Shown here in pieces: positions 31,637-64,000 of a stretch of 64,000 bases of DNA. A program made the position numbers and the translations under genes. The DNA is taken from the NCBI GenBank assembly GCA_964035015.1, contig OZ036003.1, positions 3,602,031 through 3,666,030 on the forward strand. The letters are read 5' to 3'. Position 1 is the stretch's first letter. Each line of letters opens with the position of its first letter. The DNA comes from Corallium rubrum (Eukaryota > Cnidaria > Anthozoa > Scleralcyonacea > Coralliidae). The notes beneath the pieces were generated by a model. It was not told where the DNA came from and did not search any database. It was given only the letters and a program-made list of their open reading frames with translations.

Positions 31637-31641
31637 CTATA

Positions 31642-31707: not shown

Positions 31708-31712
<5 letters not shown>

Positions 31713-31817: not shown

Positions 31818-31933
31818 GCATATCATCATATCATATCATATCATATCATACAATATCATATCATATCATATATCATATCATATCATATCATATCATATCA
31901 TATCATATCATATCATATCATATCATATCATAT
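31818..31933. repeat. (ATATC)n pentanucleotide microsatellite
   Basis: About 22 units of ATATC with two small interruptions. It ends directly at the second copy of the 233-bp duplication. Confidence 0.9.
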
Positions 31934-32166: not shown

Positions 32167-32254
<88 letters not shown>

Positions 32255-35200
32255 ATAATATTGGGCATTTCACTCGATTACATAGCATGTTCTAAGGATT
32301 TAGGGTGAAGGAAAATTCGAGTGTAGGATATATACATTTTAAGACCAAACCGGGAGCAGTTGCGAATAATGCAACTACACAGGCCCTCCGGCAGGAATTG
32401 AACCCACGACCTTGCGATTCTAGTGCAATACTCTGACCACTGAGCCATGGAGGCCGTTGCCGAGAGCTTGATCGCGAGTTCTGTATATATAATAAGGTGG
32501 TAATGCCAGGAGAGAATTGGGTATATTATAAATAATATTGGGCACTTCACTCGATTACATAGCATGTTCTAAGGATTTAGGGTGAAGGAAAATTCGAGTG
32601 TAGGATATATACATTTTAAGACCAAACCGGGAGCAGTTGCGAAAAATGCAACTACAGAGGCCCTCTGGCTGGAATTGAACCCACGACCTTGCGATTCTAG
32701 TGCAATGCTCTGACCACTGAGCCACGGAGGCCGTTGCCGAGAGCTTGATCGCGAGTTCTGTATATATAATAAGGTGGTAATGCCAGGAGAGAATTGAGTA
32801 TATTATAAATAATATTGGGCATTTCACTCGATTACATAGCATGTTCTAAGGATTTAGGGTGAAGGAAAATTCGAGTGTAGGATATATACATTTTAAGACC
32901 AAACCGGGAGCAGTTGCGAAAAATGCAACTACACAGGCCCTCCGGCAGGAATTGAACCCACGACCTTGCGATTCTAGTGCAATGCTCTGACCACTGAGCC
33001 ACGGAGGCCGTTGCCGAGAGCTTGATCGCGAGTTCTGTATATATAATAAAGTGGTAATGCCAGGAGAGAATTGGGTATATTATAAATAATATTGGGTATT
33101 TCACTCGATTACATAGCATGTTCTAAGGATTTAGGGTGAAGGAAAATTCGAGTGTAGGATATATACATTTTAAGACCAAACCGGGAGCAGTTGCGAAAAA
33201 TGCAACTACACAGGCCCTCCGGCAGGAATTGAACCCACGACCTTGCGATTCAAGTGCAATGCTCTGACCACTGAGCCACGGAGGCCGTTGCCGAGAGCTT
33301 GATCGCGAGTTCTGTATATATAATAAGGTGGTAATGCCAGGAGAGAATTGGGTATATTATAAATAATATTGGGCATTTCACTCGATTACATAGCATGTTC
33401 TAAGGATTTAGGGTGAAGGAAAATTCGAGTGTAGTATATATACATTTTAAGACCAAACCGGGAGCAGTTGCGAAAAATGCAACTACACAGGCCCTCCGGC
33501 AGGAATTGAACCCACGACCTTGCGATTCTAGTGCAATGCTCTGACCACTGAGCCACGGAGGCCGTTGCCGAGAGCTTGATCGCGAGTTCTGTATATATAA
33601 TAAGGTGGTAATGCCAGGAGAGAATTGGGTATATTATAAATAATATTGGGCATTTCACTCGATTACATAGCATGTTCTAAGGATTTAGGGTGAAGGAAAA
33701 TTCGGGTGTAGGATATATACATTTTAAGACCAAACCGGGAGCAGTTGCGAAAAATGCAACTACACAGCCCCTCCGGCAGGAATTGAACCCACGACCTTGC
33801 GATTCTAGTGCAATGCTCTGACCACTGAGCCACGGAGGCCGTTGCCGAGAGCTTGATCGCGAGTTCTGTATATATAATAAGGTGGTAATGCCAGGAGAGA
33901 ATTGGGTATATTATAAATAATATTGGGCATTTCACTCGATTACATAGCATGTTCTAAGGATTTAGGGTGAAGGAAAATTCGAGTGTAGGATATATACATT
34001 TTAAGACCAAACCGGGAGCAGTTGCGAATAATGCAACTACATTATAAATAATATTGGGCATTTCACTCGATTACATAGCATGTTCTAAGGATTTAGGGTG
34101 AAGGAAAATTCGAGTGTAGGATATATACATTTTAAGACCAAACCGGGAGCAGTTGCGAATAATGCAACTACACAGGCCCTCCGGCAGGAATTGAACCCAC
34201 GACCTTGCGATTCTAGTGCAATACTCTGACCACTGAGCCATGGAGGCCGTTGCCGAGAGCTTGATCGCGAGTTCTGTATATATAATAAGGTGGTAATGCC
34301 AGGAGAGAATTGGGTATATTATAAATAATATTGGGCACTTCACTCGATTACATAGCATGTTCTAAGGATTTAGGGTGAAGGAAAATTCGGGTGTAGGATA
34401 TATACATTTTAAGACCAAACCGGGAGCAGTTGCGAAAAATGCAACTACACAGCCCCTCCGGCAGGAATTGAACCCACGACCTTGCGATTCTAGTGCAATG
34501 CTCTGACCACTGAGCCACGGAGGCCGTTGCCGAGAGCTTGATCGCGAGTTCTGTATATATAATAAGGTGGTAATGCCAGGAGAGAATTGGGTATATTATA
34601 AATAATATTGGGCATTTCACTCGATTACATAGCATGTTCTAAGGATTTAGGGTGAAGGAAAATTCGAGTGTAGGATATATACATTTTAAGACCAAACCGG
34701 GAGCAGTTGCGAATAATGCAACTACACAGGCCCTCCGGCAGGAATTGAACCCACGACCTTGCGATTCTAGTGCAATACTCTGACCACTGAGCCATGGAGG
34801 CCGTTGCCGAGAGCTTGATCGCGAGTTCTGTATATATAATAAGGTGGTAATGCCAGGAGAGAATTGGGTATATTATAAATAATATTGGGCACTTCACTCG
34901 ATTACATAGCATGTTCTAAGGATTTAGGGTGAAGGAAAATTCGAGTGTAGGATATATACATTTTAAGACCAAACCGGGAGCAGTTGCGAAAAATGCAACT
35001 ACAGAGGCCCTCTGGCTGGAATTGAACCCACGACCTTGCGATTCTAGTGCAATGCTCTGACCACTGAGCCACGGAGGCCGTTGCCGAGAGCTTGATCGCG
35101 AGTTCTGTATATATAATAAGGTGGTAATGCCAGGAGAGAATTGAGTATATTATAAATAATATTGGGCATTTCACTCGATTACATAGCATGTTCTAAGGAT

Positions 35201-38200
35201 TTAGGGTGAAGGAAAATTCGAGTGTAGGATATATACATTTTAAGACCAAACCGGGAGCAGTTGCGAAAAATGCAACTACACAGGCCCTCCGGCAGGAATT
35301 GAACCCACGACCTTGCGATTCTAGTGCAATGCTCTGACCACTGAGCCACGGAGGCCGTTGCCGAGAGCTTGATCGCGAGTTCTGTATATATAATAAGGTG
35401 GTAATGCCAGGAGAGAATTGGGTATATTATAAATAATATTGGGTATTTCACTCGATTACATAGCATGTTCTAAGGATTTAGGGTGAAGGAAAATTCGAGT
35501 GTAGGATATATACATTTTAAGACCAAACCGGGAGCAGTTGCGAAAAATGCAACTACACAGGCCCTCCGGCAGGAATTGAACCCACGACCTTGCGATTCAA
35601 GTGCAATGCTCTGACCACTGAGCCACGGAGGCCGTTGCCGAGAGCTTGATCGCGAGTTCTGTATATATAATAAGGTGGTAATGCCAGGAGAGAATTGGGT
35701 ATATTATAAATAATATTGGGCATTTCACTCGATTACATAGCATGTTCTAAGGATTTAGGGTGAAGGAAAATTCGGGTGTAGGATATATACATTTTAAGAC
35801 CAAACCGGGAGCAGTTGCGAAAAATGCAACTACACAGCCCCTCCGGCAGGAATTGAACCCACGACCTTGCGATTCTAGTGCAATGCTCTGACCACTGAGC
35901 CACGGAGGCCGTTGCCGAGAGCTTGATCGCGAGTTCTGTATATATAATAAGGTGGTAATGCCAGGAGAGAATTGGGTATATTATAAATAATATTGGGCAT
36001 TTCACTCGATTACATAGCATGTTCTAAGGATTTAGGGTGAAGGAAAATTCGAGTGTAGGATATATACATTTTAAGACCAAACCGGGAGCAGTTGCGAATA
36101 ATGCAACTACACAGGCCCTCCGGCAGGAATTGAACCCACGACCTTGCGATTCTAGTGCAATACTCTGACCACTGAGCCATGGAGGCCGTTGCCGAGAGCT
36201 TGATCGCGAGTTCTGTATATATAATAAGGTGGTAATGCCAGGAGAGAATTGGGTATATTATAAATAATATTGGGCACTTCACTCGATTACATAGCATGTT
36301 CTAAGGATTTAGGGTGAAGGAAAATTCGAGTGTAGGATATATACATTTTAAGACCAAACCGGGAGCAGTTGCGAAAAATGCAACTACAGAGGCCCTCTGG
36401 CTGGAATTGAACCCACGACCTTGCGATTCTAGTGCAATGCTCTGACCACTGAGCCACGGAGGCCGTTGCCGAGAGCTTGATCGCGAGTTCTGTATATATA
36501 ATAAGGTGGTAATGCCAGGAGAGAATTGAGTATATTATAAATAATATTGGGCATTTCACTCGATTACATAGCATGTTCTAAGGATTTAGGGTGAAGGAAA
36601 ATTCGAGTGTAGGATATATACATTTTAAGACCAAACCGGGAGCAGTTGCGAAAAATGCAACTACACAGGCCCTCCGGCAGGAATTGAACCCACGACCTTG
36701 CGATTCTAGTGCAATGCTCTGACCACTGAGCCACGGAGGCCGTTGCCGAGAGCTTGATCGCGAGTTCTGTATATATAATAAGGTGGTAATGCCAGGAGAG
36801 AATTGGGTATATTATAAATAATATTGGGTATTTCACTCGATTACATAGCATGTTCTAAGGATTTAGGGTGAAGGAAAATTCGAGTGTAGGATATATACAT
36901 TTTAAGACCAAACCGGGAGCAGTTGCGAAAAATGCAACTACACAGGCCCTCCGGCAGGAATTGAACCCACGACCTTGCGATTCAAGTGCAATGCTCTGAC
37001 CACTGAGCCACGGAGGCCGTTGCCGAGAGCTTGATCGCGAGTTCTGTATATATAATAAGGTGGTAATGCCAGGAGAGAATTGGGTATATTATAAATAATA
37101 TTGGGCATTTCACTCGATTACATAGCATGTTCTAAGGATTTAGGGTGAAGGAAAATTCGAGTGTAGTATATATACATTTTAAGACCAAACCGGGAGCAGT
37201 TGCGAAAAATGCAACTACACAGGCCCTCCGGCAGGAATTGAACCCACGACCTTGCGATTCTAGTGCAATGCTCTGACCACTGAGCCACGGAGGCCGTTGC
37301 CGAGAGCTTGATCGCGAGTTCTGTATATATAATAAGGTGGTAATGCCAGGAGAGAATTGGGTATATTATAAATAATATTGGGCATTTCACTCGATTACAT
37401 AGCATGTTCTAAGGATTTAGGGTGAAGGAAAATTCGGGTGTAGGATATATACATTTTAAGACCAAACCGGGAGCAGTTGCGAAAAATGCAACTACACAGC
37501 CCCTCCGGCAGGAATTGAACCCACGACCTTGCGATTCTAGTGCAATGCTCTGACCACTGAGCCACGGAGGCCGTTGCCGAGAGCTTGATCGCGAGTTCTG
37601 TATATATAAGAAGGTGGTAATGCCAGGAGAGAATTGGGTATATTATAAATAATATTGGGCATTTCACTCGATTACATAGCATGTTCTAAGGATTTAGGGT
37701 GAAGGAAAATTCGAGTGTAGGATATATACATTTTAAGACCAAACCGGGAGCAGTTGCGAAAAATGCAACTACACAGGCCCTCCGGCAGGAATTGAACCCA
37801 CGACCTTGCGATTCTAGTGCAATGCTCTGACCACTGAGCCACGGAGGCCGTTGCCGAGAGCTTGATCGCGAGTTCTGTATATATAATAAGGTGGTAATGC
37901 CAGGAGAGAATTGGGTATATTATAAATAATATTGGGCATTTCACTCGATTACATAGCATGTTCTAAGGATTTAGGGTGAAGGAAAATTCGAGTGTAGGAT
38001 ATATACATTTTAAGACCAAACCGGGAGCAGTTGGGAAAAATGCAACTACACAGGCCCTCCGGCAGGAATTGAACCCACGACCTTGCGATTCTAGTGCAAT
38101 GCTCTGACCACTGAGCCACGGAGGCCGTTGCCGAGAGCTTGATCGCGAGTTCTGTATATATAATAAGGTGTTAATGCCAGGAGAGAATTGGGTATATTAT

Positions 38201-39341
38201 AAACAATATTGGGCATTTCACTCGATTACATAGCATGTTCTAAGGATTTAGGGTGAAGGAAAATTCGAGTGTAGGATATATACATTTTAAGACCAAACTG
38301 GGAGCAGTTGCGAAAAATGCAACTACACAGGCCCTCCGGCAGGAATTGAACCCACGACCTTGCGATTCTAGTGCAATGCTCTGACCACTGAGCCACGGAG
38401 GCCGTTGCCGAGAGCTTGATCGCGAGTTCTGTATATATAATAAGGTGGTAATGCCAGGAGAGAATTGGGTATATTATAAATAATATTGGGCATTTCACTC
38501 GATTACATAGCATGTTCTAAGGATTTAGGGTGAAGGAAAATTCGAGTGTAGGATATATACATTTTAAGACCAAACCGGGAGCAGTTGCGAAAAATGCAAC
38601 TACACAGGCCCTCCAGCAGGAATTGAACCCACGACCTTGCGATTCTAGTGCAATGCTCGGACAACTGAGCCACGGAGGCCGTTGCCGAGAGCTTGATCGC
38701 GAGTTCTGTATATATAATAAGGTGGTAATGCCAGGAGAGAATTGAGTATATTATAAATAATATTGGGCATTTCACTCGATTACATAGCATGTTCTAAGGA
38801 TTTAGGGTGAAGGAAAATTCGAGTGTAGGATATATACATTTTAAGACCAAACCGGGAGCAGTTGCGAAAAATGCAACTACACAGGCCCTCCGGCAGGAAT
38901 TGAACCCACGACCTTGCGATTCTAGTGCAATGCTCTGACCACTGAGCCCGTTGCCGAGAGCTTGATCGCGAGTTCTGTATATATAATAAGGTGGTAATGC
39001 CAGGAGAGAATTGGGTATATTATAAACAATATTGGGCATTTCACTCGATTACATAGCATGTTCTAAGGATTTAGGGTGAAGGAAAAATTCGAGTGTAGGA
39101 TATATACATTTTAAGACCAAACTGGGGAGCAGTTGCGAAAAATGCAACTACACAGGCCCTCCGGCAGGAATTGAACCCACGACCTTGCGATTCTAGTGCA
39201 ATGCTCTGACCACTGAGCCACGGAGGCCGTTGCCGAGAGCTTGATCGCGAGTTCTGTATATATAATAAGGTGGTAATGCCAGGAGAGAATTGGGTATATT
39301 ATAAATAATATTGGGCATTTCACTCGATTACATAGCATGTT
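32255..39341 (-). repeat. tRNA-like satellite, block 1 (~25 units of 277 bp)
   Basis: Tandem 277-bp units start immediately after a (TA)n tract and stop at a retroelement. Each has on the minus strand a tRNA-like segment with Pol III A and B boxes. Subtypes recur in order. One subtype has a GAATAATGC loop (32363, 34026, 34156, 34710, 36095). One has GATTCAAGTGC (33247, 35595, 36980), and one has GTGTAGTATATA (33431, 37163). One 131-bp partial unit at about 33940-34070 has lost its tRNA-like part, and one unit (about 38946) has lost 8 bp of the acceptor arm. Confidence 0.95.
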
Positions 39342-40649
39342 AACAAACTACAGTTTGGTTTTCTTAAGGGAAAGTCTACCACGTCTCAGCTCCTACTAGT
39401 TCTACATGAAATTGGGGAATTGCTCGACAAGAGAGTGCAAACGGATACAATCTATCTAGACTTTGCTAAAGCTTTTGACAGGGTCGACCACCAACTGCTG
39501 CTCATAAAGTTATGCAACTTCGGCATTTGTGGAAATTTGTTGAAGTGGTTTGAGAACTACCTAGTAGATCGTCGTCAGAAGGTCACCGTCCTTGGAAAAA
39601 CATCACAGCCACTCCCAGCTCTATCTGGCGTGCCCCAAGGCTCGATTCTCGGTCCTTTGTTATTTCTTATATATGTGAATGATCTTCCTAATGTAACCAA
39701 CACATCGTCCGTTGCTTTATTTGCTGATGACACTAAATGTTATCGTGATATAAGAAATTCAGAGGATGGGAAATGTCTCCAGCGTGATCTTGACAAGATA
39801 TCCGAGTGGTGTGAAATCTGGCGCATGGATCTCAACCAAACCAAATGTGGTCTCCTGAGAGTAACAAGGAATACCAAACCTATTCAGACATGCTATCGTG
39901 TGACGGACACGCCAGTTAAGACCATCAGCGTTCAAAGAGATCTTGGGGTTCTAGTTACTCCTAATCTAAAATGGAACTCGCATGTATCTGCAGTATTGAC
40001 TAAAGCCAACAAAATGCTGGGTTTTATTCGAAGATCTTCAATTGATATTCATGACCAGCGTGTCCGTACTGCACTATACACAGCTTTAGTTAGGAGTCAC
40101 TTTGCATATTGTTCCCAAGTTTGGTCGCCGCAGTCTGTGTCGTTAATTCTCAACGTTGAAAGAGTCCAACGCCGCGCCACAAGGTTTATTCTGTCATTGC
40201 CATTTAGATCCGACAACACCTATCAGGATAGACTCGTAAAAACAGGACTTCTACCTCTGTCCTACTGGCAAGAGTACCTTGACTTAGTATACCTCTTTAA
40301 ACGTTTATGTATTGCAAGTGACCCTTACATTTCTGTTAAGTCCTCTAACCGTGTAACTAGGCGCTCTAACCAAAAAAATGAAATTATTCTAAATATTCCT
40401 AAAGTAAACACTCTAACTTTTCAAAACAGCTTTTATTGTAGAGCACCGCGAATTTTCAACTCCTTGCCATCACATTTGCGAAATGTCAACCTCTCTACTA
40501 GTCAATTTAAATCTAAATTATTAGAATATTACCAACACGCAACCGAACACGTATACAATGTTGAAACTCCACAAACTTTTAAAACCGTCTGTGTTAAATG
40601 TCACTCGTGCCGTCCTCTGTCCGGTCTTCTTGTTAAAATGTGCTGTTAA
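39342..40649 (+). CDS. RT C-terminal two-thirds of a CR1/L2-like element (partial)
   Basis: The frame is open from the truncation point: FGFLKGKSTTSQLL, TIYLDFAKAFDRVDH (first catalytic Asp), SGVPQGSILGPLLF, ALFADDTKC (FADD box) and a C-terminal VERVQRRATRFI region ending in a Cys/His-like CVKCHSCRPL. No endonuclease remains. The open frame over 435 codons suggests a fairly recent insertion. There is no natural start codon. Confidence 0.85.
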   Translation, partial: NKLQFGFLKGKSTTSQLLLVLHEIGELLDKRVQTDTIYLDFAKAFDRVDHQLLLIKLCNFGICGNLLKWFENYLVDRRQKVTVLGKTSQPLPALSGVPQGSILGPLLFLIYVNDLPNVTNTSSVALFADDTKCYRDIRNSEDGKCLQRDLDKISEWCEIWRMDLNQTKCGLLRVTRNTKPIQTCYRVTDTPVKTISVQRDLGVLVTPNLKWNSHVSAVLTKANKMLGFIRRSSIDIHDQRVRTALYTALVRSHFAYCSQVWSPQSVSLILNVERVQRRATRFILSLPFRSDNTYQDRLVKTGLLPLSYWQEYLDLVYLFKRLCIASDPYISVKSSNRVTRRSNQKNEIILNIPKVNTLTFQNSFYCRAPRIFNSLPSHLRNVNLSTSQFKSKLLEYYQHATEHVYNVETPQTFKTVCVKCHSCRPLSGLLVKMCC

Positions 40650-40813
40650 TTTATGTATATTCACGAGTCTTAGGTGAGAACTTACTTTTAATATTTATGT
40701 TTTAATGTTTTCCATATTAATTTTGTATTTTGGGGATCCCGTAATGGAGCCACAAGCTCTGTGGGACTTCCCTGTCATTTTGGCAAAGCTTGTAAATAAA
40801 TAAATAAAATAAA
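39342..40813 (+). mobile_element. 5'-truncated CR1/L2-like retrotransposon inserted in the satellite
   Basis: ATGTT is duplicated at 39337-39341 and 40814-40818, and the interrupted 277-bp unit resumes exactly after it. The element has a truncated RT, a 3' UTR and a TAAATAAATAAAT-type tail, the hallmark of target-primed integration of this clade. Its 3' UTR reads GGAGCCACAAGCTCTGTGG before the tail. Confidence 0.9.
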
Positions 40814-41161
40814 ATGTTCTAAGGATTTAGGGTGAAGGAAAATTCGAGTGTAGGATATATACATTTTAAAACCAAACCGGGAGCAGTTGCGAAAAATGCA
40901 ACTACACAGGCCCTCCAGCAGGAATTGAACCCACGACCTTGCGGTTCTAGTGCAATGCTCTGACAACTGAGCCACGGAGGCCGTTGCCCAGAGCTTGATC
41001 GCGAGTTCTGTATATATAATAAGGTGGTAATGCCAGGAGAGAATTGGGCATATTATAAATAATATTGGGCATTTCACTCGATTACATAGCATGTTCTAAG
41101 GATTTAGGGTGAAGGAAAATTCGAGTGTAGGATATATACATTTTAAGACCAAACCGGGAGC

Positions 41162-41180
41162 AGTTGCGAAAAATGCAACT
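41162..41180 (-). terminator. Hairpin with T5 loop downstream of the tRNA-like segment
   Basis: On the minus strand AGTTGC-ATTTTTC-GCAACT forms a 6-bp stem whose loop has a T5 run (41169-41173), starting about 13 nt after the tRNA-like 3' end. T4 or longer stops Pol III. One subtype has ATTATTC in the loop and so lacks the run; the unit near 60540 has T6. Confidence 0.6.
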
Positions 41181-41197
41181 ACACAGGCCCTCCGGCA

Positions 41198-41208
41198 GGA
41201 ATTGAACC
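41198..41208 (-). promoter_or_regulatory. Pol III B box
   Basis: GGTTCAATTCC fits the consensus GGTTCRANNCC at every position. It is almost invariant across the array. Confidence 0.8.
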
Positions 41209-41240
41209 CACGACCTTGCGATTCTAGTGCAATGCTCTGA

Positions 41241-41251
41241 CCACTGAGCCA
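41241..41251 (-). promoter_or_regulatory. Pol III A box
   Basis: TGGCTCAGTGG fits TRGYNNARNGG fully. The spacing to the B box is normal for tRNA genes. One subtype carries TG in place of the terminal GG. Confidence 0.8.
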
Positions 41252-41286
41252 CGGAGGCCGTTGCCGAGAGCTTGATCGCGAGTTCT

Positions 41287-41298
41287 GTATATATAATA
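41287..41298 (-). promoter_or_regulatory. TATA-like tract upstream of the tRNA-like segment
   Basis: On the minus strand TTATATATAC lies about 30-39 nt upstream of the first tRNA-like base, where TFIIIB/TBP is placed on type 2 Pol III genes. Present in almost all units. Base composition alone could explain it. Confidence 0.45.
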
Positions 41299-44200
41299 AG
41301 GTGGTAATGCCAGGAGAGAATTGGGTATATTATAAATAATATTGGGCATTTCACTCGATTACATAGCATGTTCTAAGGATTTAGGGTGAAGGAAAATTCG
41401 AGTGTAGGTTATATACATTTTAAGACCAAACCGGGAGCAGTTGCGAAAAATGCAACTACACAGGCCCTCCGGCAGGAATTGAACCCACGACCTTGCGATT
41501 CTAGTGCAATGCTCTGACCACTGAGCCACGGAGGCCGTTGCCGAGAGCTTGATCGCGAGTTCTGTATATATAATAAGGTGGTAATGCCAGGAGAGAATTG
41601 GGTATATTATAAATAATATTGGGCATTTCACTCGATTACATAGCATGTTCTAAGGATTTAGGGTGAAGGAAAATTCGAGTGCAGGATATATACATTTTAA
41701 GACCAAACCGGGAGCAGTTGCGAAAAATGCAACTACACAGGCCCTCTGGCTGGAATTGAACCCACGACCTTGCGATTCTAGTGCAATGCTCTGACCACTG
41801 AGCCACGGAGGCCGTTGCCGAGAGCTTGATCGCGAGTTCTGTATATATAGTAAGGTGGTAATGCCAGGAGAGAATTGAGTATATTATAAATAATATTGGG
41901 CATTTCACTCGATTACATAGCATGTTCTAAGGATTTAGGGTGAAGGAAAATTCGAGTGTAGGATATATACATTTTAAGACCAAACCGGGAGCAGTTGGGA
42001 AAAATGCAACTACACAGGCCCTCCGGCAGGAATTGAACCCACGACCTTGCGATTCTAGTGCAATGCTCTGACCACTGAGCCACGGAGGCCGTTGCCGAGA
42101 GCTTGATCGCGAGTTCTGTATATATAATAAGGTGGTAATGCCAGGAGAGAATTGGGTATATTATAAACAATATTGGGCATTTCACTCGATTACATAGCAT
42201 GTTCTAAGGATTTAGGGTGAAGGAAAATTCGAGTGTAGGATATATACATTTTAAGACCAAACTGGGAGCAGTTGCGAAAAATGCAACTACACAGGCCCTC
42301 CGGCAGGAATTGAACCCACGACCTTGCGATTCTAGTGCAATGCTCTGACCACTGAGCCACGGAGGCCGTTGCCGAGAGCTTGATCGCGAGTTCTGTATAT
42401 ATAATAAGGTGGTAATGCCAGGAGAGAATTGGGTATATTATAAATAATATTGGGCATTTCACTCGATTACATAGCATGTTCTAAGGATTTAGGGTGAAGG
42501 AAAATTCGAGTGTAGATATGATATATACATTTTAAGACCAAACCGGGAGCAGTTGCGAAAAATGCAACTACACAGGCCCTCCAGCAGGAATTGAACCCAC
42601 GACCTTGCAATTCTAGTGCAATGCTCTGACCACTGAGCCACGGAGGCCGTTGCCGAGAGCTTGATCGCGAGTTCTGTATATATAATAAGGTGGTAATGCC
42701 AGGAGAGAATTGGGTATATTATAAATAATATTGGGCATTTCACTCGATTACATAGCATGTTCTAAGGATTTAGGGTGAAGGAAAATTCGAATGTAGGATA
42801 TATACATTTTAAAACCAAACCGGGAGCAGTTGCGAAAAATGCAACTACACAGGCCCTCCAGCAGGAATTGAACCCACGACCTTGCGGTTCTAGTGCAATG
42901 CTCTGACAACTGAGCCACGGAGGCCGTTGCCCAGAGTTTGATCGCGAGTTCTGTATATATAATAAGGTGGTAATGCCAGGAGAGAATTGGGCATATTATA
43001 AATAATATTGGGCATTTCACTCGATTACATAGCATGTTCTAAGGATTTAGGGTGAAGGAAAATTCGAGTGTAGGATATATACATTTTAAGACCAAACCGG
43101 GAGCAGTTGCGAAAAATGCAACTACACAGGCCCTCCGGCAGGAATTGAACCCACGACCTTGCGATTCTAGTGCAATGCTCTGACCACTGAGCCACGGAGG
43201 CCGTTGCCGAGAGCTTGATCGCGAGTTCTGTATATATAATAAGGTGGTAATGCCAGGAGAGAATTGGGTATATTATAAATAATATTGGGCATTTCACTCG
43301 ATTACATAGCATGTTCTAAGGATTTAGGGTGAAGGAAAATTCGAGTGCAGGATATATACATTTTAAGACCAAACCGGGAGCAGTTGCGAAAAATGCAACT
43401 ACACAGGCCCTCTGGCTGGAATTGAACCCACGACCTTGCGATTCTAGTGCAATGCTCTGACCACTGAGCCACGGAGGCCGTTGCCGAGAGCTTGATCGCG
43501 AGTTCTGTATATATAGTAAGGTGGTAATGCCAGGAGAGAATTGAGTATATTATAAATAATATTGGGCATTTCACTCGATTACATAGCATGTTCTAAGGAT
43601 TTAGGGTGAAGGAAAATTCGAGTGTAGGATATATACATTTTAAGACCAAACCGGGAGCAGTTGGGAAAAATGCAACTACACAGGCCCTCCGGCAGGAATT
43701 GAACCCACGACCTTGCGATTCTAGTGCAATGCTCTGACCACTGAGCCACGGAGGCCGTTGCCGAAAGCTTGATCGCGAGTTCTGTATATATAATAAGGTG
43801 GTAATGCCAGGAGAGAATTGGGTATATTATAAACAATATTGGGCATTTCACTCGATTACATAGCATGTTCTAAGGATTTAGGGTGAAGGAAAATTCGAGT
43901 GTAGGATATATACATTTTAAGACCAAACTGGGAGCAGTTGCGAAAAATGCAACTACACAGGCCCTCCGGCAGGAATTGAACCCACGACCTTGCGATTCTA
44001 GTGCAATGCTCTGACCACTGAGCCACGGAGGCCGTTGCCGAGAGCTTGATCGCGAGTTCTGTATATATAATAAGGTGGTAATGCCAGGAGAGAATTGGGT
44101 ATATTATAAATAATATTGGGCATTTCACTCGATTACATAGCATGTTCTAAGGATTTAGGGTGAAGGAAAATTCGAGTGTAGGATATATACATTTTAAGAC

Positions 44201-47200: not shown

Positions 47201-48490
47201 TTTAGGGTGAAGGAAAATTCGAGTGTAGGATATATACATTTTAAGACCAAACCAGGAGCAGTTGCGAAAAATGCAACTACACCGGCCCTCCGGCAGGAAT
47301 TGAACCCACGACCTTGCGATTCTAGTGCAATGCTCTGACCACTGAGCCACGGAGGCCGTTGCCGAGAGCTTGATCGCGAGTTCTGTATATATAATAAGGT
47401 GGTAATGCCAGGAGAGAATTGGGTATATTATAAATAATATTGGGCATTTCACTCGATTACATATCATGTTCTAAGGATTTAGGGTGAAGGAAAATTCGAG
47501 TGTAGGATATATACATTTTAAGACCAAGCCGGGAGCAGTTGCGAAAAATGCAACTACACAGGCCCTCCGGCAGGAATTGAACCCACGACCTTGCGATTCT
47601 AGTGCAATGCTCTGACCACTGAGCCACGGAGGCCGTTGCCGAGAGCTTGATCGCGAGTTCTGTATATATAATAAGGTGGTAATGCCAGGAGAGAATTGGG
47701 TATATTATAAATAATATTGGGCATTTCACTCGATTACATAGCATGTTCTAAGGATTTAGGGTGAAGGAAAATTCGAGTGTAGGATATATACATTTTAAGA
47801 CCAAACCGGGAGCAGTTGCGAAAAATGCAACTACACAGGCCCTCCGGCAGGAATTGAACCCACGACCTTGCGATTCTAGTGCAATGCTCTGACAACTGAG
47901 CCACGGAGGCCGTTGCCCAGAGCTTGATCGCGAGTTCTGTATATATAATAAGGTGGTAATGCCAGGAGAGAATTGGGTATATTATAAATAATATTGGGCA
48001 TTTCACTCGATTACATAGCATGTTCTAAGGATTTAGGGTGAAGGAAAATTCGAGTGTAGGATATATACATTTTAAGACCAAACCGGGAGCAGTTGCGAAA
48101 AATGCAACTACACAGGCCCTCCGGCAGGAATTGAACCCACGACCTTGCGATTCTAGTGCAATGCTCTGACCACTGAGCCACGGAGGCCGTTGCCGAGAGC
48201 TTGATCGCGAGTTCTGTATATATAATAAGGTGGTAATGCCAGGAGAGAATTGGGTATATTATAAATAATATTGGGCATTTCACTCGATTACATAGCATGT
48301 TCTAAGGATTTAGGGTGAAGGAAAATTCGAGTGTAGGATATATACATTTTAAGACCAAACCGGGAGCAGTTGCGAAAAATGCAACTACACAGGCCCTCTG
48401 GCAGGAATTGAACCCACGACCTTGCGACTCTAGTGCAATGCTCTGACCACTGAGCCACGGAGGCCGTTGCCGAGAGCTTGATCGCGAGTT

Positions 48491-51580: not shown

Positions 51581-51776
51581 ACGATAGATAGATAGATAGA
51601 TAGATAGATGGTTTATTTTCAAAAACATTGCAGCCGAAAAGCTGAATTATGTTAAGAATTACATGAATACAGAATAAATTAGAATAACAATTAAAAAGTA
51701 TGAACAATCGTGATGATAATTATAAACAAAGGTTGAAATTTAGAACTTGAATTGTAAATAATATTATGTACAATTT

Positions 51777-54700: not shown

Positions 54701-55388
54701 GCTTTCCTCTTAGCCTCCGAACTAAGCCATTCGATCTCAGAGAGTCCCAAACGAGATAGTTAAGAGGCTTTGTCGGTTGTATTCGAATATGGCCGGTAGA
54801 TTGAAGTCCAAGCGAACCAGATTTCCACCAAAAGCGAAGGGAAAATAAAAAGCTTCTTGAATACGTAACTTGCATTATGGCACCAATAGTCCTTAGACTT
54901 AAGCTAGTAACAACATTTAATATAAAAACTTGTAGTAGGTAGTTTAAAAACTCCAATTTATGGAGCGAATATATAAGCAGCCAGCCGGCGCTATCTACTC
55001 GGTGTATACTCTTTAAACTCCTAGCGTTAACGACGAGACATTTGATTGGTAATCTAGGACTTGTCGATGGACCCGGCTGGGAAATGATATCACCGCAAAG
55101 TAGCAGGAAACCAGCAACAAAGCCATTAAAACCTCTGAACTTTCGGCCAGGGGAAACGGTTAGTGTAGGCCGTTGCTTAAATCCAGTTCTTGACGTAGCT
55201 GTCATCCCAGACCCAAACATAGGCCTAAAATATCTCCAAGTCGTATCCGCAAAACTTTCCCCAGATCTCAGTGGTTGCAGAAAACCATCCATAGTGACTT
55301 GGTCCAGTTTAGAACGGTAATGAATAAGGAGAAACCGAAGTAAAAGCACAAAGAACACGGAGCACATACGAGCACGTCCATTCGCCAT
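51777..55388 (-). CDS. CR1-like polyprotein: N-terminal domain, 2A-like site, endonuclease, reverse transcriptase
   Basis: The ORF from MANGRARMCS is about 1,203 residues without a stop. Upstream in-frame codons come from the satellite and are not part of it. Residues ~10-22 are hydrophobic. GFLLLCGDIISQPGP at ~93-107 resembles the 2A-like sites of some CR1 elements. The endonuclease follows (LDLICITETWL, GGVCMYVK, GDFNKLN, RGQNTLDLIYT, LSDHDSIEV), then the RT (LRPISLTPILSK, VLVDFKKAFDLIDH, PSGVPQGTKLGPWLF, WKYVDDTTI) and a C-terminal IERIQQRAMRIIFP. All catalytic boxes are intact, so the copy could still encode active enzyme. Confidence 0.85.
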   Translation of the reverse strand: MANGRARMCSVFFVLLLRFLLIHYRSKLDQVTMDGFLQPLRSGESFADTTWRYFRPMFGSGMTATSRTGFKQRPTLTVSPGRKFRGFNGFVAGFLLLCGDIISQPGPSTSPRLPIKCLVVNARSLKSIHRVDSAGWLLIYSLHKLEFLNYLLQVFILNVVTSLSLRTIGAIMQVTYSRSFLFSLRFWWKSGSLGLQSTGHIRIQPTKPLNYLVWDSLRSNGLVRRLRGKRGGQFLNCIDDFKPINPLYSSVTKPYLRRHCIDIVSPRPVNHDLGSSRPKSCHNPSNCVTIPLQFHQVLGSVHLFVPAFMLSNVMSLAPKIDEIRDVINHTYLDLICITETWLREHIVDNVIAISGFNVIRRDRIEGQHGGVCMYVKNSIKFKVLDDIMDPNFEVLWTQIRPQRLPRGITSIVVGTVYHPPSAVDSLMLDYLYNSLSFIEARFPGSGIILLGDFNKLNSSRLCNFFKLKQIVKFSTRGQNTLDLIYTNMSKFYGCPIKRSPFGLSDHDSIEVKPLKRSMVSKPKITVKSRDLRPSKRFAMRSYLEKVDIPTLIDSQSTCEDKVMLLETIINTGMDMVLPLKSKTVITSEPPWINKSLKHLIRKRQKALEQGDQVLFLQLRNRVNRERKTCRAKYYESKVEHLKDCKPALWWKEVKRLSGMTAVDSTQADQASMFQHIDCGQGEASASNIVLANVINKAFLVPMSDFTPLQPNEFAQTTQVSEACVFQVSEFSVNKKLSSLNPTKATGPDGIPSWLLRDNADLLALPVSNILNCSYTEARLPSSWKEANISPVPKQKPILDVNSHLRPISLTPILSKVAEDFIVEGFVKPAVLKKVDCRQFGTIPGSNTTQALISMLHSWNKATDGSGATVRTVLVDFKKAFDLIDHHILVLKLKSYDIPEGIVDWIIDFLTCRKQRVKLGNECYSEWGNIPSGVPQGTKLGPWLFIIMINDLNLPGTELWKYVDDTTIAETVERNGHSNIQETVDNLTRKIAVDKFKLNETKCKELRISFRKSCPDFDPIIINNKELELVENVKVLGLHISRDLKWNTHTSVIIKKTNKRLYFLSQLKRSNVGRRELVSFYRTCIRPVTEYACPVFHDSLPDYLAKDIERIQQRAMRIIFPELSYDEALSVAELVPLVVRRQQLTDKLFQQVIGDTSHKLNDLLPPANKCQFNLRKKRLFQIQPFRTDRFKKSFIIYNALKTRA
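55068..55094 (-). other. 2A-like ribosome-skipping motif, degenerate
   Basis: GDIISQPGP follows a Leu-rich run. The canonical 2A core is D-x-E-x-N-P-G-P; here Asp and PGP remain, but Glu is Ile/Ser and Asn is Gln. Function is therefore doubtful. Confidence 0.45.
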
Positions 55389-55400
55389 GCTTTTATGGTA

Positions 55401-58400
55401 TAATAATATAATAAGGTGGTAATGCCAGGAGAGAATTGAGTATATTATAAATAGTATTGTGCATTTCACTCGATTACATAGCATGTTCTAAGGATTTAGG
55501 GAGAAGGAAAATTCGAGTGTAGGATATATACATTTTAAGACCAAACCGGGAGCAGTTGCGAAAAATGCAACTACACAGGCCCTCCGGCACGAATTGAACC
55601 CACGACCTTGCGATTCTAGTGCAATGCTCTGACCACTGAGCCACGGAGGCCGTTGCCGAGAGCTTGATCGCGAGTTCTGTATATATAATAAGGTGGTAAT
55701 GCCAGGAGAGAATTGAGTATATTATAAATAATATTGTGCATTTCACTCGATTACATAGCATGTTCTAAGGATTTAGGGTGAAGGAAAATTCGAGTGTAGG
55801 ATATATACATTTTAAGACCAAACCGGGAGCAGTTGCGAAAAATGCAACTACACAGGCCCTCCGGCAGGAATTGAACCCACGACCTTGCGATTCTAGTGCA
55901 ATGCTCTGACCACTGAGCTACGGAGGCCGTTGCCGAGAGCTTGATCGCGAGTTCTGTATATATAATAAGGTGGTAATGCCAGGAGAGAATTGGGTATATT
56001 ATAAATAATATTGGGCATTTCACTCGATTACATAGCATGTTCTAAGGATTTAGGGTGAAGGAAAATTCGAGTGTAGGATATATACATTTTAAGACCAAAC
56101 CGGGAGCAGTTGCGAAAAATGCAACTACACCGGCCCTCCGGCAGGAATTGAACCCACGACCTTGCGATTCTAGTGCAATGCTCTGACCACTGAGCCACGG
56201 AGGCCGTTGCCGAGAGCTTGATCGCGAGTTCTGTATATATAATAAGGTGGTAATGCCAGGAGAGAATTCGGTATATTATAAATAATATTGGGCATTTCAC
56301 TCGATTACATAGCATGTTCTAAGGATTTAGGGTGAAGGAAAATTCGAGTGTAGGATATATACATTTTAAGACCAAACCGGGAGCAGTTGCGAAAAATGCA
56401 ACTACACAGGCCCTCCGGCAGGAATTGAACCCACGACCTTGCGATTCTAGTGCAATGCTCTGACCACTGAGCCACGGAGGCCGTTGCCGAGAGCTTGATC
56501 GCGAGTTCTGTATATATAATAAGGTGGTAATGCCAGGAGAGAGTTGGGTATATTATAAACAATATTGGGCATTTCACTCGATTACATAGCATGTTCTAAG
56601 GATTTAGGGTGAAGGAAAATTCGAGTGTAGGATATATACATTTTAAGACCAAACCGGGAGCAGTTGCGAAAAATGCAACTACACAGGCCCTCCGGCAGGA
56701 ATAGAACCCACGACCTTGCGATTCTAGTGCAATGCTCTGACAACTGAGCCACGGAGGCCGTTGCCCAGAGCTTGATCGCGAGTTCTGTATATATAATAAG
56801 GTGGTAATGCCAGGAGAGAATTGGGTATATTATAAATAATATTGGGCATTTCACTCGATTACATAGCATGTTCTAAGGATTTAGGGTGAAGGAAAATTCG
56901 AGTGTAGGATATATACATTTTAAGACCAAACCGGGAGCAGTTGCGAAAAATGCAACTACACCGGCCCTCCGGCAGGAATTGAACCCACGACCTTGCGATT
57001 CTAGTGCAATGCTCTGACCACTGAGCCACGGAGGCCGTTGCCGAGAGCTTGATCGCGAGTTCTGTATATATAATAAGGTGGTAATGCCAGGAGAGAATTG
57101 GGTATATTATAAATAATATTGGGCATTTCACTCGATTACATAGCATGTTCTAAGGATTTAGGGTGAAGGAAAATTCGAGTGTAGGATATATACATTTTAA
57201 GACCAAACCGGGAGCAGTTGCGAAAAATGCAACTACACAGGCCCTCCGGCATGAATTGAACCCACGACCTTGCGATTCTAGTGCAATGCTCTGACCACTG
57301 AGCCACGGAGGCCGTTGCCGAGAGCTTGATCGCGAGTTCTGTATATATAATAAGGTGGTAATGCCAGGAGAGAGTTGGGTATATTATAAACAATATTGGG
57401 CATTTCACTCGATTACATAGCATGTTCTAAGGATTTAGGGTGAAGGAAAATTCGAGTGTAGGATATATACATTTTAAGACCAAACCGGGAGCAGTTGCGA
57501 AAAATGCAACTACACAGGCCCTCCGGCAGGAATTGAACCCACGACCTTGCGATTCTAGTGCAATGCTCTGACAACTGAGCCACGGAGGCCGTTGCCCAGA
57601 GCTTGATCGCGAGTTCTGTATATATAATAAAGTGGCAATGCCAGGAGAGAATTGGGTATATTATAAATAATATTGGGCATTTCACTCGATTACATAGCAT
57701 GTTCTAAGGATTTAGGGTGAAGGAAAATTCGAGTGTAGGATATATACATTTTAAGACCAAACCGGGAGCAGTTGCGAAAAATGCAACTACACAGGCCCTC
57801 CGGCAGGAATTGAACCCACGACCTTGCGATTCTAGTGCAATGCTCTGACAACTGAGCCACGGAGGCCGTTGCCCAGAGCTTGATCGCGAGTTCTGTATAT
57901 ATAATAAGGTCGTAATGCCAGGAGAGAATTGGGTATATTATAAATAATATTGGGCATTTCACTCGATTACATAGCATGTTCTAAGGATTTAGGGTGAAGG
58001 AAAATTCGAGTGTAGGATATATACATTTTAAGCCAAACCGGGAGCAGTTGCGAAAAATGCAACTACACAGGCCCTCCGGCAGGAATTGAACCGACGACCT
58101 TGCGATTCTAGTGCAATGCTCTGACCACTGAGCCACGGAGGCCGTTGCCGAGAGCTTGATCGCGAGTTCTGTATATATAAGGTGGTAATGCCAGGAGAGA
58201 ATTGGGTATATTATGAATAATATTGGGCATTTCACTCGATTACATAGCATGTTCTAAGGATTTAGGGTGAAGGAAAATTCGAGTGTAGGATATATACATT
58301 TTAAGACCAAACCGGGAGCAGTTGCGAAAAATGCAACTACACAGGCCCTCTGGCAGGAATTGAACCCACGACCTTGCGAATCTAGTGCAATCCTCTGACC

Positions 58401-61400
58401 ACTGAGCCACGGAGGCCGTTGCCGAGAGCTTGATCGCGAGTTCTGTATATATAATAAGGTGGTAATGCCAAGAGAGAATTGAGTATATTATAAATAATAT
58501 TGGGCATTTCACTCGATTACATAGCATGTTCTAAGGATTTAGGGTGAAGGAAAATTCGAGTGTAGGATATATACATTTTAAGACCAAACCGGGAGCAGTT
58601 GCGAAAAATGCAACTACACAGGCCCTCCGGCAGGAATTGAACCCACGACCTTGCGATTCTAGTGCAATGCTCTGACCACTGAGCCACGGAGGTCGTTGCC
58701 GAGAGCTTGATCGCGAGTTCTGTATATATATAATAAGGTGGTAATGCCAGGAGAGAATTCGGTATATTATAAATAATATTGGGCATTTCACTCGATTACA
58801 TAGCATGTTCTAAGGATTTAGGGTGAAGGAAAATTCGAGTGTAGGATATATACATTTTAAGACCAAACCGGGAGCAGTTGCGAAAAATGCAACTACACAG
58901 GCCCTCCGGCAGGAATTGAACCCACGACCTTGCGATTCTAGTGCAATGCTCTGACCACTGAGCCACGGAGGCCGTTGCCGAGAGCTTGATCGCGAGTTCT
59001 GTATATATAATAAGGTGGTAATGCCAGAAGAGAATTGAGTATATTATAAATAATATTGGGCATTTCACTCGATTACATAGCATGTTCTAAGGATTTAGGG
59101 TGAAGGAAAATTCGAGTGTAGGATATATACATTTTAAGACCAAACCGGGAGCAGTTGCGAAAAATGCAACTACACAGGCCTCCGGCAGGAATTGAACCCA
59201 CGACCTTGCGATTCTAGTGCAATGCTCTGACCACTGAGCCACGTAGGCCGTTGCCGAGAGCTTGATCGCGAGTTCTGTATATATAATAAGGTGGTAATGC
59301 CAGGAGAGAATTGAGTATATTATATATAATATTGGGCATTTCACTCGATTACATAGCATGTTCTAAGGATTTAGGGTGAAGGAAAATTCGAGTGTAGGAT
59401 ATATACATTTTAAGACCAAACCGGGAGCAGTTGCGAAAAATGCAACTACACAGGCCCTCCGGCAGGAATTGAACCCACGACCTTGCGATTCTAGTGCAAT
59501 GCTCTGACCACTGAGCCACGGAGGCCGTTGCCGAGAGCTTGATCGCGAGTTCTGTATATATAATGTGGTAATGCCAGGAGAGAATTGGGTATATTATAAA
59601 TAATATTGGGCATTTCACTCGATTACATAGCATGTTCTAAGGATTTAGGGTGAAGGAAAATTCGAGTGTAGGATATATACATTTTAAGACCAAACCGGGA
59701 GCAGTTGCGAAAAATGCAACTACACAGGCCCTCCGGCAGGAATTGAACCCACGACCTTGCGATTCTAGTGCAATGCTCTGACCACTGAGCTACGGAGGCC
59801 GTTGCCGAGAGCTTGATCGCGAGTTCTGTATATATAATAAGGTGGTAATGCCAGGAGAGAATTGGGTATATTATGAATAATATTGGGCATTTCACTCGAT
59901 TACATAGCATGTTCTAAGGATTTAGGGTGAAGGAAAATTCGAGTGTAGGATATATACATTTTAAGACCAAACCGGGAGCAGTTGCGAAAAATGCAACTAC
60001 ACCGGCCCTCCGGCAGGAATTGAACCCACGACCTTGCGATTCTTGTGCAATGCTCTGACCACTGAGCTACGGAGGCCGTTGCCGAGAGCTTGATCGCGAG
60101 TTCTGTATATATAATAAGGTGGTAATGCCAGGAGAGAATTGGGTATATTATAAATAATATTGGGCATTTCACTCGATTACATAGCATGTTCTAAGGATTT
60201 AGGGTGAAGGAAAATTCGAGTGTAGGATATATACATTTTAAGACCAAACCGGGAGCAGTTGCGAAAAATGCAACTACACAGGCCCTCCGGCAGGAATTGA
60301 ACCCACGACCTTGCGATTCTAGTGCAATGCTCTGACCACTGAGCCACGGAGGCCGTTGCCGAGAGCTTGATCGCGAGTTCTGTATATATAATAAGGTGGT
60401 AATGCCAGGAGAGAGTTGGGTATATTATAAACAATATTGGGCATTTCACGCGATTACATAGCATGTTCTAAGGATTTAGGGTGAAGGAAAATTCGAGTGT
60501 AGGATATATACATTTTAAGACCAAACCGGGAGCAGTTGCAAAAAATGCAACTACACAGGCCCTCCGGCAGGAATTGAACCCACGACCTTGCGATTCTATT
60601 GCAATGCTCTGACAACTGAGCCACGGAGGCCGTTGCCCAGAGCTTGATCGCGAGTTCTGTATATATAATAAGGTCGTAATGCCAGGGGAGAATTGGGTAT
60701 ATTATAAATAATATTGGGCATTTCACTCGATTACATAGCATGTTCTAAGGATTTAGGGTGAAGGAAAATTCGAGTGTAGGATATATACATTTTAAGCCAA
60801 ACCGGGAGCAGTTGCGAAAAATGCAACTACACAGGCCCTCCGGCAGGAATTGAACCCGCGACCTTGCGATTCTAGAGCAATGCTGTGACCACTGAGCCAC
60901 GGAGGCTGTTGCCGAGAGCTTGATCGCGAGTTCTGTATACATAATAAGGTGGTAATGCCAGGAGAGAATTGGGTATATTATAAATAATATTGGGCATTTC
61001 ACTCGATTACATAGCATGTTCTAAGGGTTTAGGGTGGAGGAAAATTCGAGTGTAGGATATATACATTTTATGACCAAACCGGGAGCAGTTGCGAAAAATG
61101 CAACTACACAGGCCCTCCGGCAGGAATTGAACCCACGACCTTGCGATTCTAGTGCAATGCTCTGACCACTGAGCCACGGAGGCCGTTGCCGAGAGCTTGA
61201 TCGCGAGTTCTGTATATATAATAAGGTGGTAATGCCAGGAGAGAATTGAGTATATTATAAATAATATTGTGCATTTCACTCGATTACATAGCATGTTCTA
61301 AGGATTTAGGGTGAAGGAAAATTCGAGTGTAGGATATATACATTTTAAGACCAAACCGGGAGCAGTTGCGAAAAATGCAACTACACAGGCCCTCCGGCAG

Positions 61401-64000
61401 GAATTGAACCCACGACCTTGCGATTCTAGTGCAATGCTCTGACCACTGAGCCACGGAGGCCGTTGCCGAGAGCTTGATCGCGAGTTCTGTATATATAATA
61501 AGGTGGTAATGCCAGGAGAGAATTGAGTATATTATAAATAATATTGGGCATTTCACTCGATTACATAGCATGTTCTAAGGATTTAGGGTGAAGGAAAATT
61601 CGAGTGTAGGATATATACATTTTAAGACCAAACCGGGAGCAGTTGCGAAAAATGCAACTACACAGGCCCTCCGGCAGGAATTGAACCCACGACCTTGCGA
61701 TTCTAGTGCAATGCTCTGACCACTGAGCCACGGAGGTCGTTGCCGAGAGCTTGATCGCGAGTTCTGTATATATATAATAAGGTGGTAATGCCAGGAGAGA
61801 ATTGGGTATATTATAAATAATATTGGGCATTTCACTCGATTACATAGCATGTTCTAAGGATTTAGGGTGAAGGAAAATTCGAGTGTAGGATATATACATT
61901 TTAAGACCAAACCGGGAGCAGTTGCGAAAAATGCAACTACACAGGCCCTCCGGCAGGAATTGAACCCACGACCTTGCGATTCTAGTGCAATGCTCTGACC
62001 ACTGAGCCCGTTGCCGAGAGCTTGATCGCGAGTTCTGTATATATAATAAGGTGGTAATGCCAGAAGAGAATTGAGTATATTATAAATAATATTGGGCATT
62101 TCACTCGATTACATAGCATGTTCTAAGGATTTAGGGTGAAGGAAAATTCGAGTGTAGGATATATACATTTTAAGACCAAACCGGGAGCAGTTGCGAAAAA
62201 TGCAACTACACAGGCCCTCCGGCAGGAATTGAACCCACGACCTTGCGATTCTAGTGCAATGCTCTGACCACTGAGCCACGTAGGCCGTTGCCGAGAGCTT
62301 GATCGCGAGTTCTGTATATATAATAAGGTGGTAATGCCAGGAGAGAATTGAGTATATTATAAATAATATTGGGCATTTCACTCGATTACATAGCATGTTC
62401 TAAGGATTTAGGGTGAAGGAAAATTCGAGTGTAGGATATATACATTTTAAGACCAAACCGGGAGCAGTTGCGAAAAATGCAACTACACAGGCCCTCCGGC
62501 AGGAATTGAACCCACGACCTTGCGATTCTAGTGCAATGCTCTGACCACTGAGCCACGGAGGCCGTTGCCGAGAGCTTGATCGCGAGTTCTGTATATATAA
62601 TGTGGTAATGCCAGGAGAGAATTGGGTATATTATAAATAATATTGGGCATTTCACTCGATTACATAGCATGTTCTAAGGATTTAGGGTGAAGGAAAATTC
62701 GAGTGTAGGATATATACATTTTAAGACCAAACCGGGAGCAGTTGCGAAAAATGCAACTACACAGGCCCTCCGGCAGGAATTGAACCCACGACCTTGCGAT
62801 TCTAGTGCAATGCTCTGACCACTGAGCCACGGAGGCCGTTGCCGAGAGCTTGATCGCGAGTTCTGTATATATAATAAGGTGGTAATGCCAGGAGAGAATT
62901 GAGTATATTATAAATAATATTGGGCATTTCACTCGATTACATAGCATGTTCTAAGGATTTAGGGTGAAGGAAAATTCGAGTGTAGGATATATACATTTTA
63001 AGACCAAACCGGGAGCAGTTGCGAAAAATGCAACTACACAGGCCCTCCGGCAGGAATTGAACCCAGGACCTTGCGATTCTAGTGCAATGCTCTGACCACT
63101 GAGCCACGGAGGCCGTTGCCGAGAGCTTGATCGCGAGTTCTGTATATATAATAAGGTGGTAATGCCAGGAGAGAATTGGGTATATTATAAATAATATTGG
63201 GCATTTCACTCGATTACATAGCATGTTCTAAGGATTTAGGGTGAAGGAAAATTCGAGTGTAGGATATATACATTTTAAGACCAAACCAGGAGCAGTTGCG
63301 AAAAATGCAACTACACAGGCCCTCCGGCAGGAATTGAACCCACGACCTTGCGATTCTAGTGCAATGCTCTGACCACTGAGCCACGTAGGCCGTTGCCGAG
63401 AGCTTGATCGCGAGTTCTGTATATATAATAAGGTGGTAATGCCAGGAGAGAATTGAGTATATTATAAATAATATTGGGCATTTCACTCGATTACATAGCA
63501 TGTTCTAAGGATTTAGGGTGAAGGAAAATTCGAGTGTAGGATATATACGTTTTAAGACCAAACCGGGAGCAGTTGCGAAAAATGCAACTACACAGGCCCT
63601 CCGGCAGAAATTGAACCCACGACCTTGCGATTCTAGTGCGATGCTCTGACCACTGAGCCACGGAGGCCGTTGCCGAGAGCTTGATCGCGAGTTCTGTATA
63701 TATAATAAGGTGGTAATGCCAGGAGAGAATTGGGTATATTATAAATAATATTGGGCATTTCACTCGATTACATAGCATGTTCTAAGGATTTAGGGTGAAG
63801 GAAAATTCGAGTGTAGGATATATACATTTTAAGACCAAACCAGGAGCAGTTGCGAAAAATGCAACTACACAGGCCCTCCGGCAGGAATTGAACCCACGAC
63901 CTTGCGATTCTAGTGCAATGCTCTGACCACTGAGCCACGGAGGCCGTTGCCGAGAGCTTGATCGCGAGTTCTGTATATATAATAAGGTGGTAATGCCAGG
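55401..64000 (-). repeat. tRNA-like satellite, block 3 (~31 units of 277 bp), open at the right edge
   Basis: Same unit and orientation as blocks 1 and 2. A three-unit motif, CACCGGCCC then GAGAGTTGGG then GACAACTGAG, recurs from about 56028, 56859 and 59900. The stretch 58517-59900 corresponds to 61561-62940 unit for unit, about 11 units apart. Small length variants occur: a shortened TATATAATGTGG spacer (59562, 62598), a lengthened TATATATATAATAAGG (58725, 61768), and an 8-bp acceptor-arm deletion (about 62008). Confidence 0.95.

Follow-up and report, generated by a model that had tools for sequence, protein, structure and literature searches.

A satellite of tRNA-like units in Corallium rubrum as the probable product of a dispersed multimeric retroelement

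Introduction

Metazoan retrozymes, which belong to the non-LTR (long terminal repeat) kind, consist of tandem units of 150-450 bp with less than 50% GC and a type I hammerhead in every unit, in copies ranging from dimers to 62-mers. Their target duplications, when present, exceed 4 bp, and a circular RNA has been proposed as the template of their tandem complementary DNA (cDNA), with a long interspersed nuclear element (LINE) or a Penelope-like element suggested as helper (as given in the part of PMC7229834 used here). Amphibian RNA polymerase III (Pol III) satellites, namely Cynops PolIII/TAN, Xenopus OAX, Rana/polIII and Hydromantes Hy/polIII, are tandem repeats with a tRNA-like part, about 200-360 nt long with OAX longer, and Hy/polIII has no B box (PMC10702118, in the part used here). 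Here we analyse a stretch of 64,000 nt from the 474-Mb genome of Corallium rubrum (C20:3602031-3666030, hereafter the window), in which a head-to-tail array of a 277-bp unit, bearing a tRNA-like segment, an A box, a B box and five consecutive T (T5), occupies position 32247 to the window end. This array is probably an exceptionally long copy of a retroelement that is non-coding, non-autonomous and dispersed, and that is copied as multimers from one unit. The original prediction of a Pol III satellite is true as far as it goes, but the satellite probably arose as the final stage of such a mobile, multimeric element.

The unit resembles metazoan retrozymes in several respects: its 277-bp tandem repeats form clusters of 1 to 11 units (in the first 100 listed places of the genome search described below) as well as an array of 46.7 kb, its GC content is 0.438, and its insertions have target duplications of 12-14 bp. 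Unlike them, it carries a tRNA-like Pol III minigene and no known ribozyme that we could find, and the two-armed insertions seen for the unit are not mentioned for retrozymes in the part of PMC7229834 used here. With the amphibian satellites it shares the long tandem array with tRNA-like boxes that defines the OAX and PolIII/TAN kind, in line with the earlier statement that tRNA-promoter satellites are precedented, whereas the same part of PMC10702118 mentions no mobility with target duplications for these satellites. Squamate satellites derived from short interspersed nuclear elements (SINEs; PMC10702118) and the limpet PcH-sat, derived from Nin-SINE (PMC11121367), are likewise tandem arrays tied to a dispersed tRNA-related element, but the parts of these sources used here describe portions of a known SINE that were amplified, and PcH-sat as lacking A and B boxes. 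Helenus terminal-repeat retrotransposons in miniature (TRIMs) are, like the unit, non-autonomous retroelements with a tRNA-like sequence, yet they have LTRs, a primer-binding site, a polypurine tract and duplications of 4-5 bp (PMC10886601, in part); we rejected a TRIM-type element on duplication length, with primer-binding site and polypurine tract not searched for. Finally, in the tRNA gene arrays of Entamoeba, as here, units bearing tRNA-type genes are repeated in tandem over long distances, but those are the organism's tRNA genes, whereas the present unit is mobile and its segment is not a working tRNA (PMC2652664, in part). Our literature search, from which subscription journals were mostly missing, gave no name for a ribozyme-less multimeric element of this sort.

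Results and discussion

Dispersed copies and their insertion sites

A pattern search of the whole genome with a 41-nt piece of the unit from behind the tRNA-like part, allowing up to three mismatches, yielded 4,259 + 4,358 = 8,617 matches, compared to 0 + 0 for the reversed pattern. If each match stands for one unit, the units would amount to about 2.4 Mb, or about 0.5% of the genome. The original prediction had set dispersed SINEs against a tandem unit; this contrast fails, as the 277-bp unit is itself dispersed thousands of times and occurs as short multimers. Neither its dispersal nor its mobility is visible from the window. Cluster statistics come from the first 100 listed places, all of them exact 41-mer matches on contig C1. 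These form 44 clusters (20 single units, 12 of two units, 6 of three, and others of 4 to 11), which are undercounted because inexact units were missed, and 43 of 44 same-strand spacings lie at 276-281. BLAST detected no copy of the unit in seven stretches of 10 kb, all chosen at a single arbitrary position.

We examined 23 dispersed loci (20 plus three added later), and tested 21 of them for target duplications (L033 and L034 were left out). Six (L014, L019, L021, L024, L025 and L031) have a duplication of 12-14 bp that contains two or more G/C, while pairing the flanks of different loci produced a match of at least 8 bp in 1 of 420 cases; the match at L018 is a (TA) run and was counted apart from the six. 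(TA)n adjoins 11 of the 23 loci on at least one side and 7 on both, and there a duplication would be invisible. Away from (TA)n, 6 of the 10 loci tested have a duplication. Across the genome, the end ...GAACAT runs directly into (AT)n at 154 places (up to two mismatches). The window array, too, is inserted in (TA)n. A second copy of its flanking sequence lies next to it at 31404..31933 (no strand assigned) and represents a paralogous empty site: in an end-to-end alignment, the joined flanks of the array cover all 530 bp of this copy (511 identical positions, 17 mismatches, 102 gap positions), and the position of the array corresponds to a (TA)n run.

Many copies are built of two arms. Orientation switches were minus-then-plus in 14 of 14 cases at the examined loci and in 12 of 12 among the first 100 listed places (partly overlapping sets), and the head-to-head centres overlap by 3-11 bp in 7 of the 14. 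The tandem tRNA-like units with Pol III boxes, together with the amphibian precedents (PMC10702118, in part), would fit a plain Pol III satellite of the Xenopus or newt kind, or a SINE-derived satellite, that spreads by recombination, as first proposed. We regard this explanation as improbable, given the dispersed copies with 12-14-bp duplications, their two-armed structure and the paralogous empty site that corresponds to the place where the array itself was inserted.

The outer ends of the copies are spread over many positions of the unit, with 234-245 and 273-277 frequent, and as many as 6 bases inside the target duplication can match the element. The unit border is crossed even where an insertion is about one unit long or an arm measures 1.26 units (L015, L024). 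Both features suggest a template without fixed start or end, and since copy ends vary, a DNA transposon with fixed termini was rejected. The unit does have the A and B boxes of a tRNA-derived SINE head. However, copies do not begin at such a head: starts vary, only L013 starts there, and many copies, as well as the relatives, contain unit sequence upstream of the tRNA-like part. Copies outside (TA)n carry no SINE tail and end at several unit positions, and the unit matches no LINE in the window that could have supplied a LINE-related 3' end (LINEs elsewhere in the genome were not compared). The reading of the tRNA-like part as a SINE head was therefore dropped. As separate observations, the L013 copy begins at 761, the exact 5' end of the tRNA-like segment (unit 70), where RNase P would cut, and the L024 copy stops at 1477, its 3' end (unit 142), where tRNase Z would cut; these are two cases only.

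One template per insertion

Units of the same insertion are far more alike than units of different insertions. For the 71 of 78 copies in 23 loci that entered the comparison (two below 90% identity and five short ones were left out), divergence was 0.0038 within and 0.0205 between insertions, and 0 of 1000 label permutations gave a within-insertion value as low (minimum 0.0147). Divergence within was lower than between in 16 of 17 loci with pairs, and five multi-unit insertions showed 0.0012-0.0037 within and 0.013-0.030 to others. Arms of opposite orientation in one insertion differ by 0.0071 with the 90% filter on, and the arms of L031 share variants, with 4 differences over 3,397 compared positions in 7 copies. 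Private indels follow the same pattern: three L030 units carry a common 2-nt insertion, and the L033 repeat is mostly 276 bp long. In the window array, by comparison, consecutive units diverge by 1.9% (runs of five average 0.0193), and 0 of 78 runs of five consecutive units were that alike (minimum 0.0087), so the short multimers are not copied stretches of such an array.

Judged from these sequences, a short multimer is made from one unit, either because a reverse transcriptase circles a ring or because the copy grows locally once inserted. The second route belongs to an alternative in which SINE-like monomers insert by target-primed reverse transcription, and local slippage or unequal exchange then produces identical units and eventually satellites. 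Local amplification would give the same near-identical units per insertion, the repeated blocks of three and four units in the window array fit such growth, and 20 of the 44 clusters are single exact matches. We nonetheless consider it unlikely, because the two arms of an insertion share variants, as in L031, while L015 and L024 cross the unit border, ends fall at many positions and no SINE tail is present. We prefer a ring to local growth on account of the variants common to both arms and of a template that apparently lacks a fixed start or end.

The mechanism that we propose runs as follows. Three of its steps can be read from the copies themselves: insertions lie in (TA)n or are flanked by duplications of 12-14 bp; each holds one to several head-to-tail units descended from one unit template; and in many of them two arms extend outward from a centre where they meet head to head. 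The template would most simply be a circular RNA of one unit, or else a freshly multimerised one. A reverse transcriptase primed at both cut ends would circle this template, and the two cDNAs would be joined mid-way. The enzyme may be that of a Penelope-like element, and some copies, the window array among them, would later grow and diversify into satellites by unequal exchange.

A candidate helper lies within the window at 20971..25863 (no strand assigned), as a head-to-head inverted pair with the 13 bp CATGATACACTGT at both ends, of which 23154-24953 form a near-perfect 1.8-kb palindrome (98.9% identity with its reverse complement). RVT_1 is found in relatives of the encoded protein, with a GIY-YIG domain in one among the 120 listed, and the soft coral Xenia is one source among these. 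We take the element to be Penelope-like from its layout, domain and hammerhead features and from the general traits of the class. A hammerhead-like core, CTGAAGA...CAACGAAA, stands inverted near both outer ends (21092-21119 and 25753-25780). A third, longer match to the hammerhead pattern lies on the minus strand near the centre. The layout is that of the unit insertions, head-to-head with a 13-bp duplication, whereas the duplication made by the LINE within the array is 5 bp long. Minimal hammerheads have been described in Penelope-like elements (PMC7761336, in part), and the window copy shares the head-to-head layout and the 13-bp duplication with the unit insertions; unlike those elements, the unit has no reverse transcriptase, nor any convincing sequence in common with the ends of the window element. 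This resemblance of layout, which is not proof, suggests that the Penelope-like element is perhaps the helper of the unit. It also bears on another possibility, that extrachromosomal circular DNA was captured at staggered breaks without reverse transcription. A circular template, multimers and short-homology breakpoints would fit that explanation equally well, but the narrow 12-14-bp duplications and the minus-plus order match the window Penelope-like element, a match that random capture would presumably not produce, which makes circular DNA a very improbable source.

Several points weigh against multimeric copying from a ring. Local amplification after insertion would also yield identical units. 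In L012 the relation is reversed (0.0258 within, 0.0232 between), and the gap is small in several short loci. Without the 90% filter (57 copies, 21 loci), divergence is 0.0072 for the same orientation, 0.0362 for opposite orientations and 0.0275 between insertions, the high opposite-arm value arising because L030 holds units of about 98% and about 82% side by side, two old units among them. No duplication was found in L015, L016 and L023, all away from (TA)n, and L030 shows only a 16-nt common flank string that includes element bases. The insertions examined are those on contig C1 with exact 41-mer matches, which lean to young copies and preselect the T5 run. No match between the unit and the ends of the Penelope-like element was convincing. 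Both circles and Pol III transcription of the unit are things that we infer, and a Pol III RNA is not obviously the template because the T5 run would stop a transcript well short of one unit. Separately, L030 indicates that an older subfamily exists, since at 896-2460 units of about 98% and about 80-82% adjoin between flanks that share ACCTTATTCTAAAATG.

Promoter and tRNA-like segment

All positions here refer to a representative unit on the minus strand (32801..33077, where unit position p equals window position 33078 - p). The tRNA-like segment (32937..33008, minus strand) matches the Rfam tRNA model RF00005 at 48.2 bits, with a class I layout and 19 of 21 consensus pairs standard. It contains an A box, TGGCTCAGTGG, at 32991..33001 and a B box, GGTTCAATTCC, at 32948..32958, and is preceded by the TATA motif TATATATA at 33038..33045 (unit 33-40, -37 to -30 from the tRNA-like start). 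Past the B box, a T5 run at 32919..32923, likely a Pol III terminator, sits in the loop of an 8-bp hairpin (32910..32932, -10.9 kcal/mol); all of these lie on the minus strand. We scored the 84 units of at least 230 bp with strict definitions (TRGYNNARNGG for the A box, GGTTCRANTCC for the B box). The A box was strict in 73 and the B box in 79 units, and both together in 69, so the claim that the boxes of each unit match in full was overstated. TATATATA is present in 82 of 84 units, 37 to 30 bases upstream of the tRNA-like start, and of the 79 units whose B box is strict, 74 have five or six T in a row 23-24 nt past it. Among 200 first-order Markov sequences of array length, strict A/B pairs occurred 0 times, and looser pairs, 80 of which were observed in the array, averaged 0.185 with a maximum of 3.

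With TATA, A box, B box and T5, the units look like complete Pol III transcription units. A Pol III transcript should stop at about 90-100 nt without reading through the array, given the T5 run inside the unit, and the unit holds about 200 bp of further sequence besides this minigene. TATA-like boxes at -31/-24 matter in rodent tRNA- and 7SL-derived 4.5S RNA genes (PMC10137851, in part). Within the window array, the Pol III boxes show no clear excess conservation: A box, B box, TATA and T5 jointly have 9 of 35 sites variable, which 66 of 276 circular shifts equal or beat. Among the dispersed copies spanning the promoter (n = 48, 18 loci), A and B boxes were strict in 48 of 48 each and T5 was present in 47, whereas both boxes occur in 46 of the 57 window-array units that hold the identical exact 41-mer (p = 0.0008 when copies are counted, 0.056 when the 18 loci are). 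Given the value by loci, selection for an intact promoter in mobile copies is suggested but not shown.

The prediction of about 84 tandem tRNA-like units in one orientation was borne out, with 84 units on the minus strand, 82 of them predicted by ARAGORN, under the label tRNA-Ser, and 84 matched by RF00005. A covariance-model check had also been proposed, and the array units score 30.2-51.4 bits, above the cut-off of 29. As for the segment being foldable, 19 of 21 cloverleaf pairs are retained in the consensus, yet the RNA has no folding advantage over shuffled sequences (z = -0.19, with 85 of 200 shuffles at least as good). The ARAGORN label and the Rfam scores of up to 51.4 bits would suit an array of working tRNA-Ser(AGA) genes, an explanation that we find exceedingly improbable: the Rfam alignment shows no long variable arm, with which the tRNA-Ser label does not fit, two consensus pairs in the class I layout are non-standard, 28 of 40 changed pair cells within the array break a pair with no double changes, and variable sites are no scarcer in the tRNA-like part than elsewhere in the unit (32 of 73 versus 60 of 204 sites). 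A working tRNA-Ser gene was rejected on the missing arm, the non-standard pairs and the lack of double changes. The closest of ten human tRNAs compared was Arg-TCT (51/73).

A retrozyme without a ribozyme?

No ribozyme family matched a 587-bp two-unit stretch (E up to 10) or was found in an earlier scan (E up to 5), and neither strand of the unit consensus contains a CTGANGA...GAAA core; an undescribed kind of ribozyme could still be present. A hammerhead or other Rfam ribozyme in the unit was rejected for want of a family match or core, and because no hammerhead was found, we do not file the unit as a metazoan retrozyme. Very tentatively, it might instead represent a retrozyme without a ribozyme, that is, a circular RNA element with a tRNA-like Pol III module in the place of the hammerhead, mobilised by a Penelope-like element and seeding satellites, although we think this rather doubtful. 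The ring could, for example, be cut and closed by tRNA-processing enzymes and tRNA ligase. If true, this would be a second road in animals from transcript to RNA ring to tandem DNA. The family links tRNA-type promoters, multimeric retroelements and satellites, which are usually treated apart, and makes intermediates visible as single copies, short uniform multimers and a diversified 46.7-kb array. It would allow a direct test of satellite birth from mobile elements, and of whether RNA rings are made and reverse-transcribed without a hammerhead.

Relatives of the unit

The chance open reading frame (ORF) of the unit alone had 4 protein matches, and an alignment of these with two window units had 340, of which the 120 listed, all from ENA, underlie the following counts. 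The match of these relatives includes sequence on either side of the tRNA-like part. In 12 among the 120 listed ORFs, some at low identity, a single alignment passes from a unit's tail into the next unit, and a looser pattern recovered this order in 13; an antisense stretch occurs in 6. Six tail pairs in single ORFs are spaced 183, 243, 282, 285, 288 and 294 nt apart. Because the relatives' ORFs keep the tail-to-next-unit order, the family seems to be wider than Corallium rubrum and tandem there too; the search was driven by shared words, so that no measure of conservation can be derived from it. Scans of viral contigs and of bacterial and archaeal genome contigs for the unit or its chance ORF gave no relative.

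The array and other features of the window

The array consists of three blocks in the orientation of the tRNA-like strand (minus): 32247..39341, 40814..48491 and 55406..64000, the last running on about 15 kb past the window to C20:3680949. A satellite of at least 24 kb had been claimed. Within the window it falls slightly short of that figure, at 23,368 bp net, because 39342-40813 and 48492-55405 are non-LTR insertions, but the array continues, reaching 46.7 kb end to end with these insertions included. The first insertion (39342..40813, plus strand) is a 5'-truncated non-LTR retrotransposon with a 5-bp duplication, ATGTT, identified by eye. The second (48492..55405, minus strand) comprises two adjoining non-LTR retrotransposons of the same orientation, with frames of 989 and 1236 aa between stops and a GATA microsatellite between them. 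Blocks of 3 and 4 units are repeated within the array, including blocks of four identical units at 34594 and 35979, and a 131-bp partial unit occurs repeatedly (33909-34172). Outside the array, an open frame for a DDE_Tnp_4 transposase lies at 13407-14441 on the minus strand.

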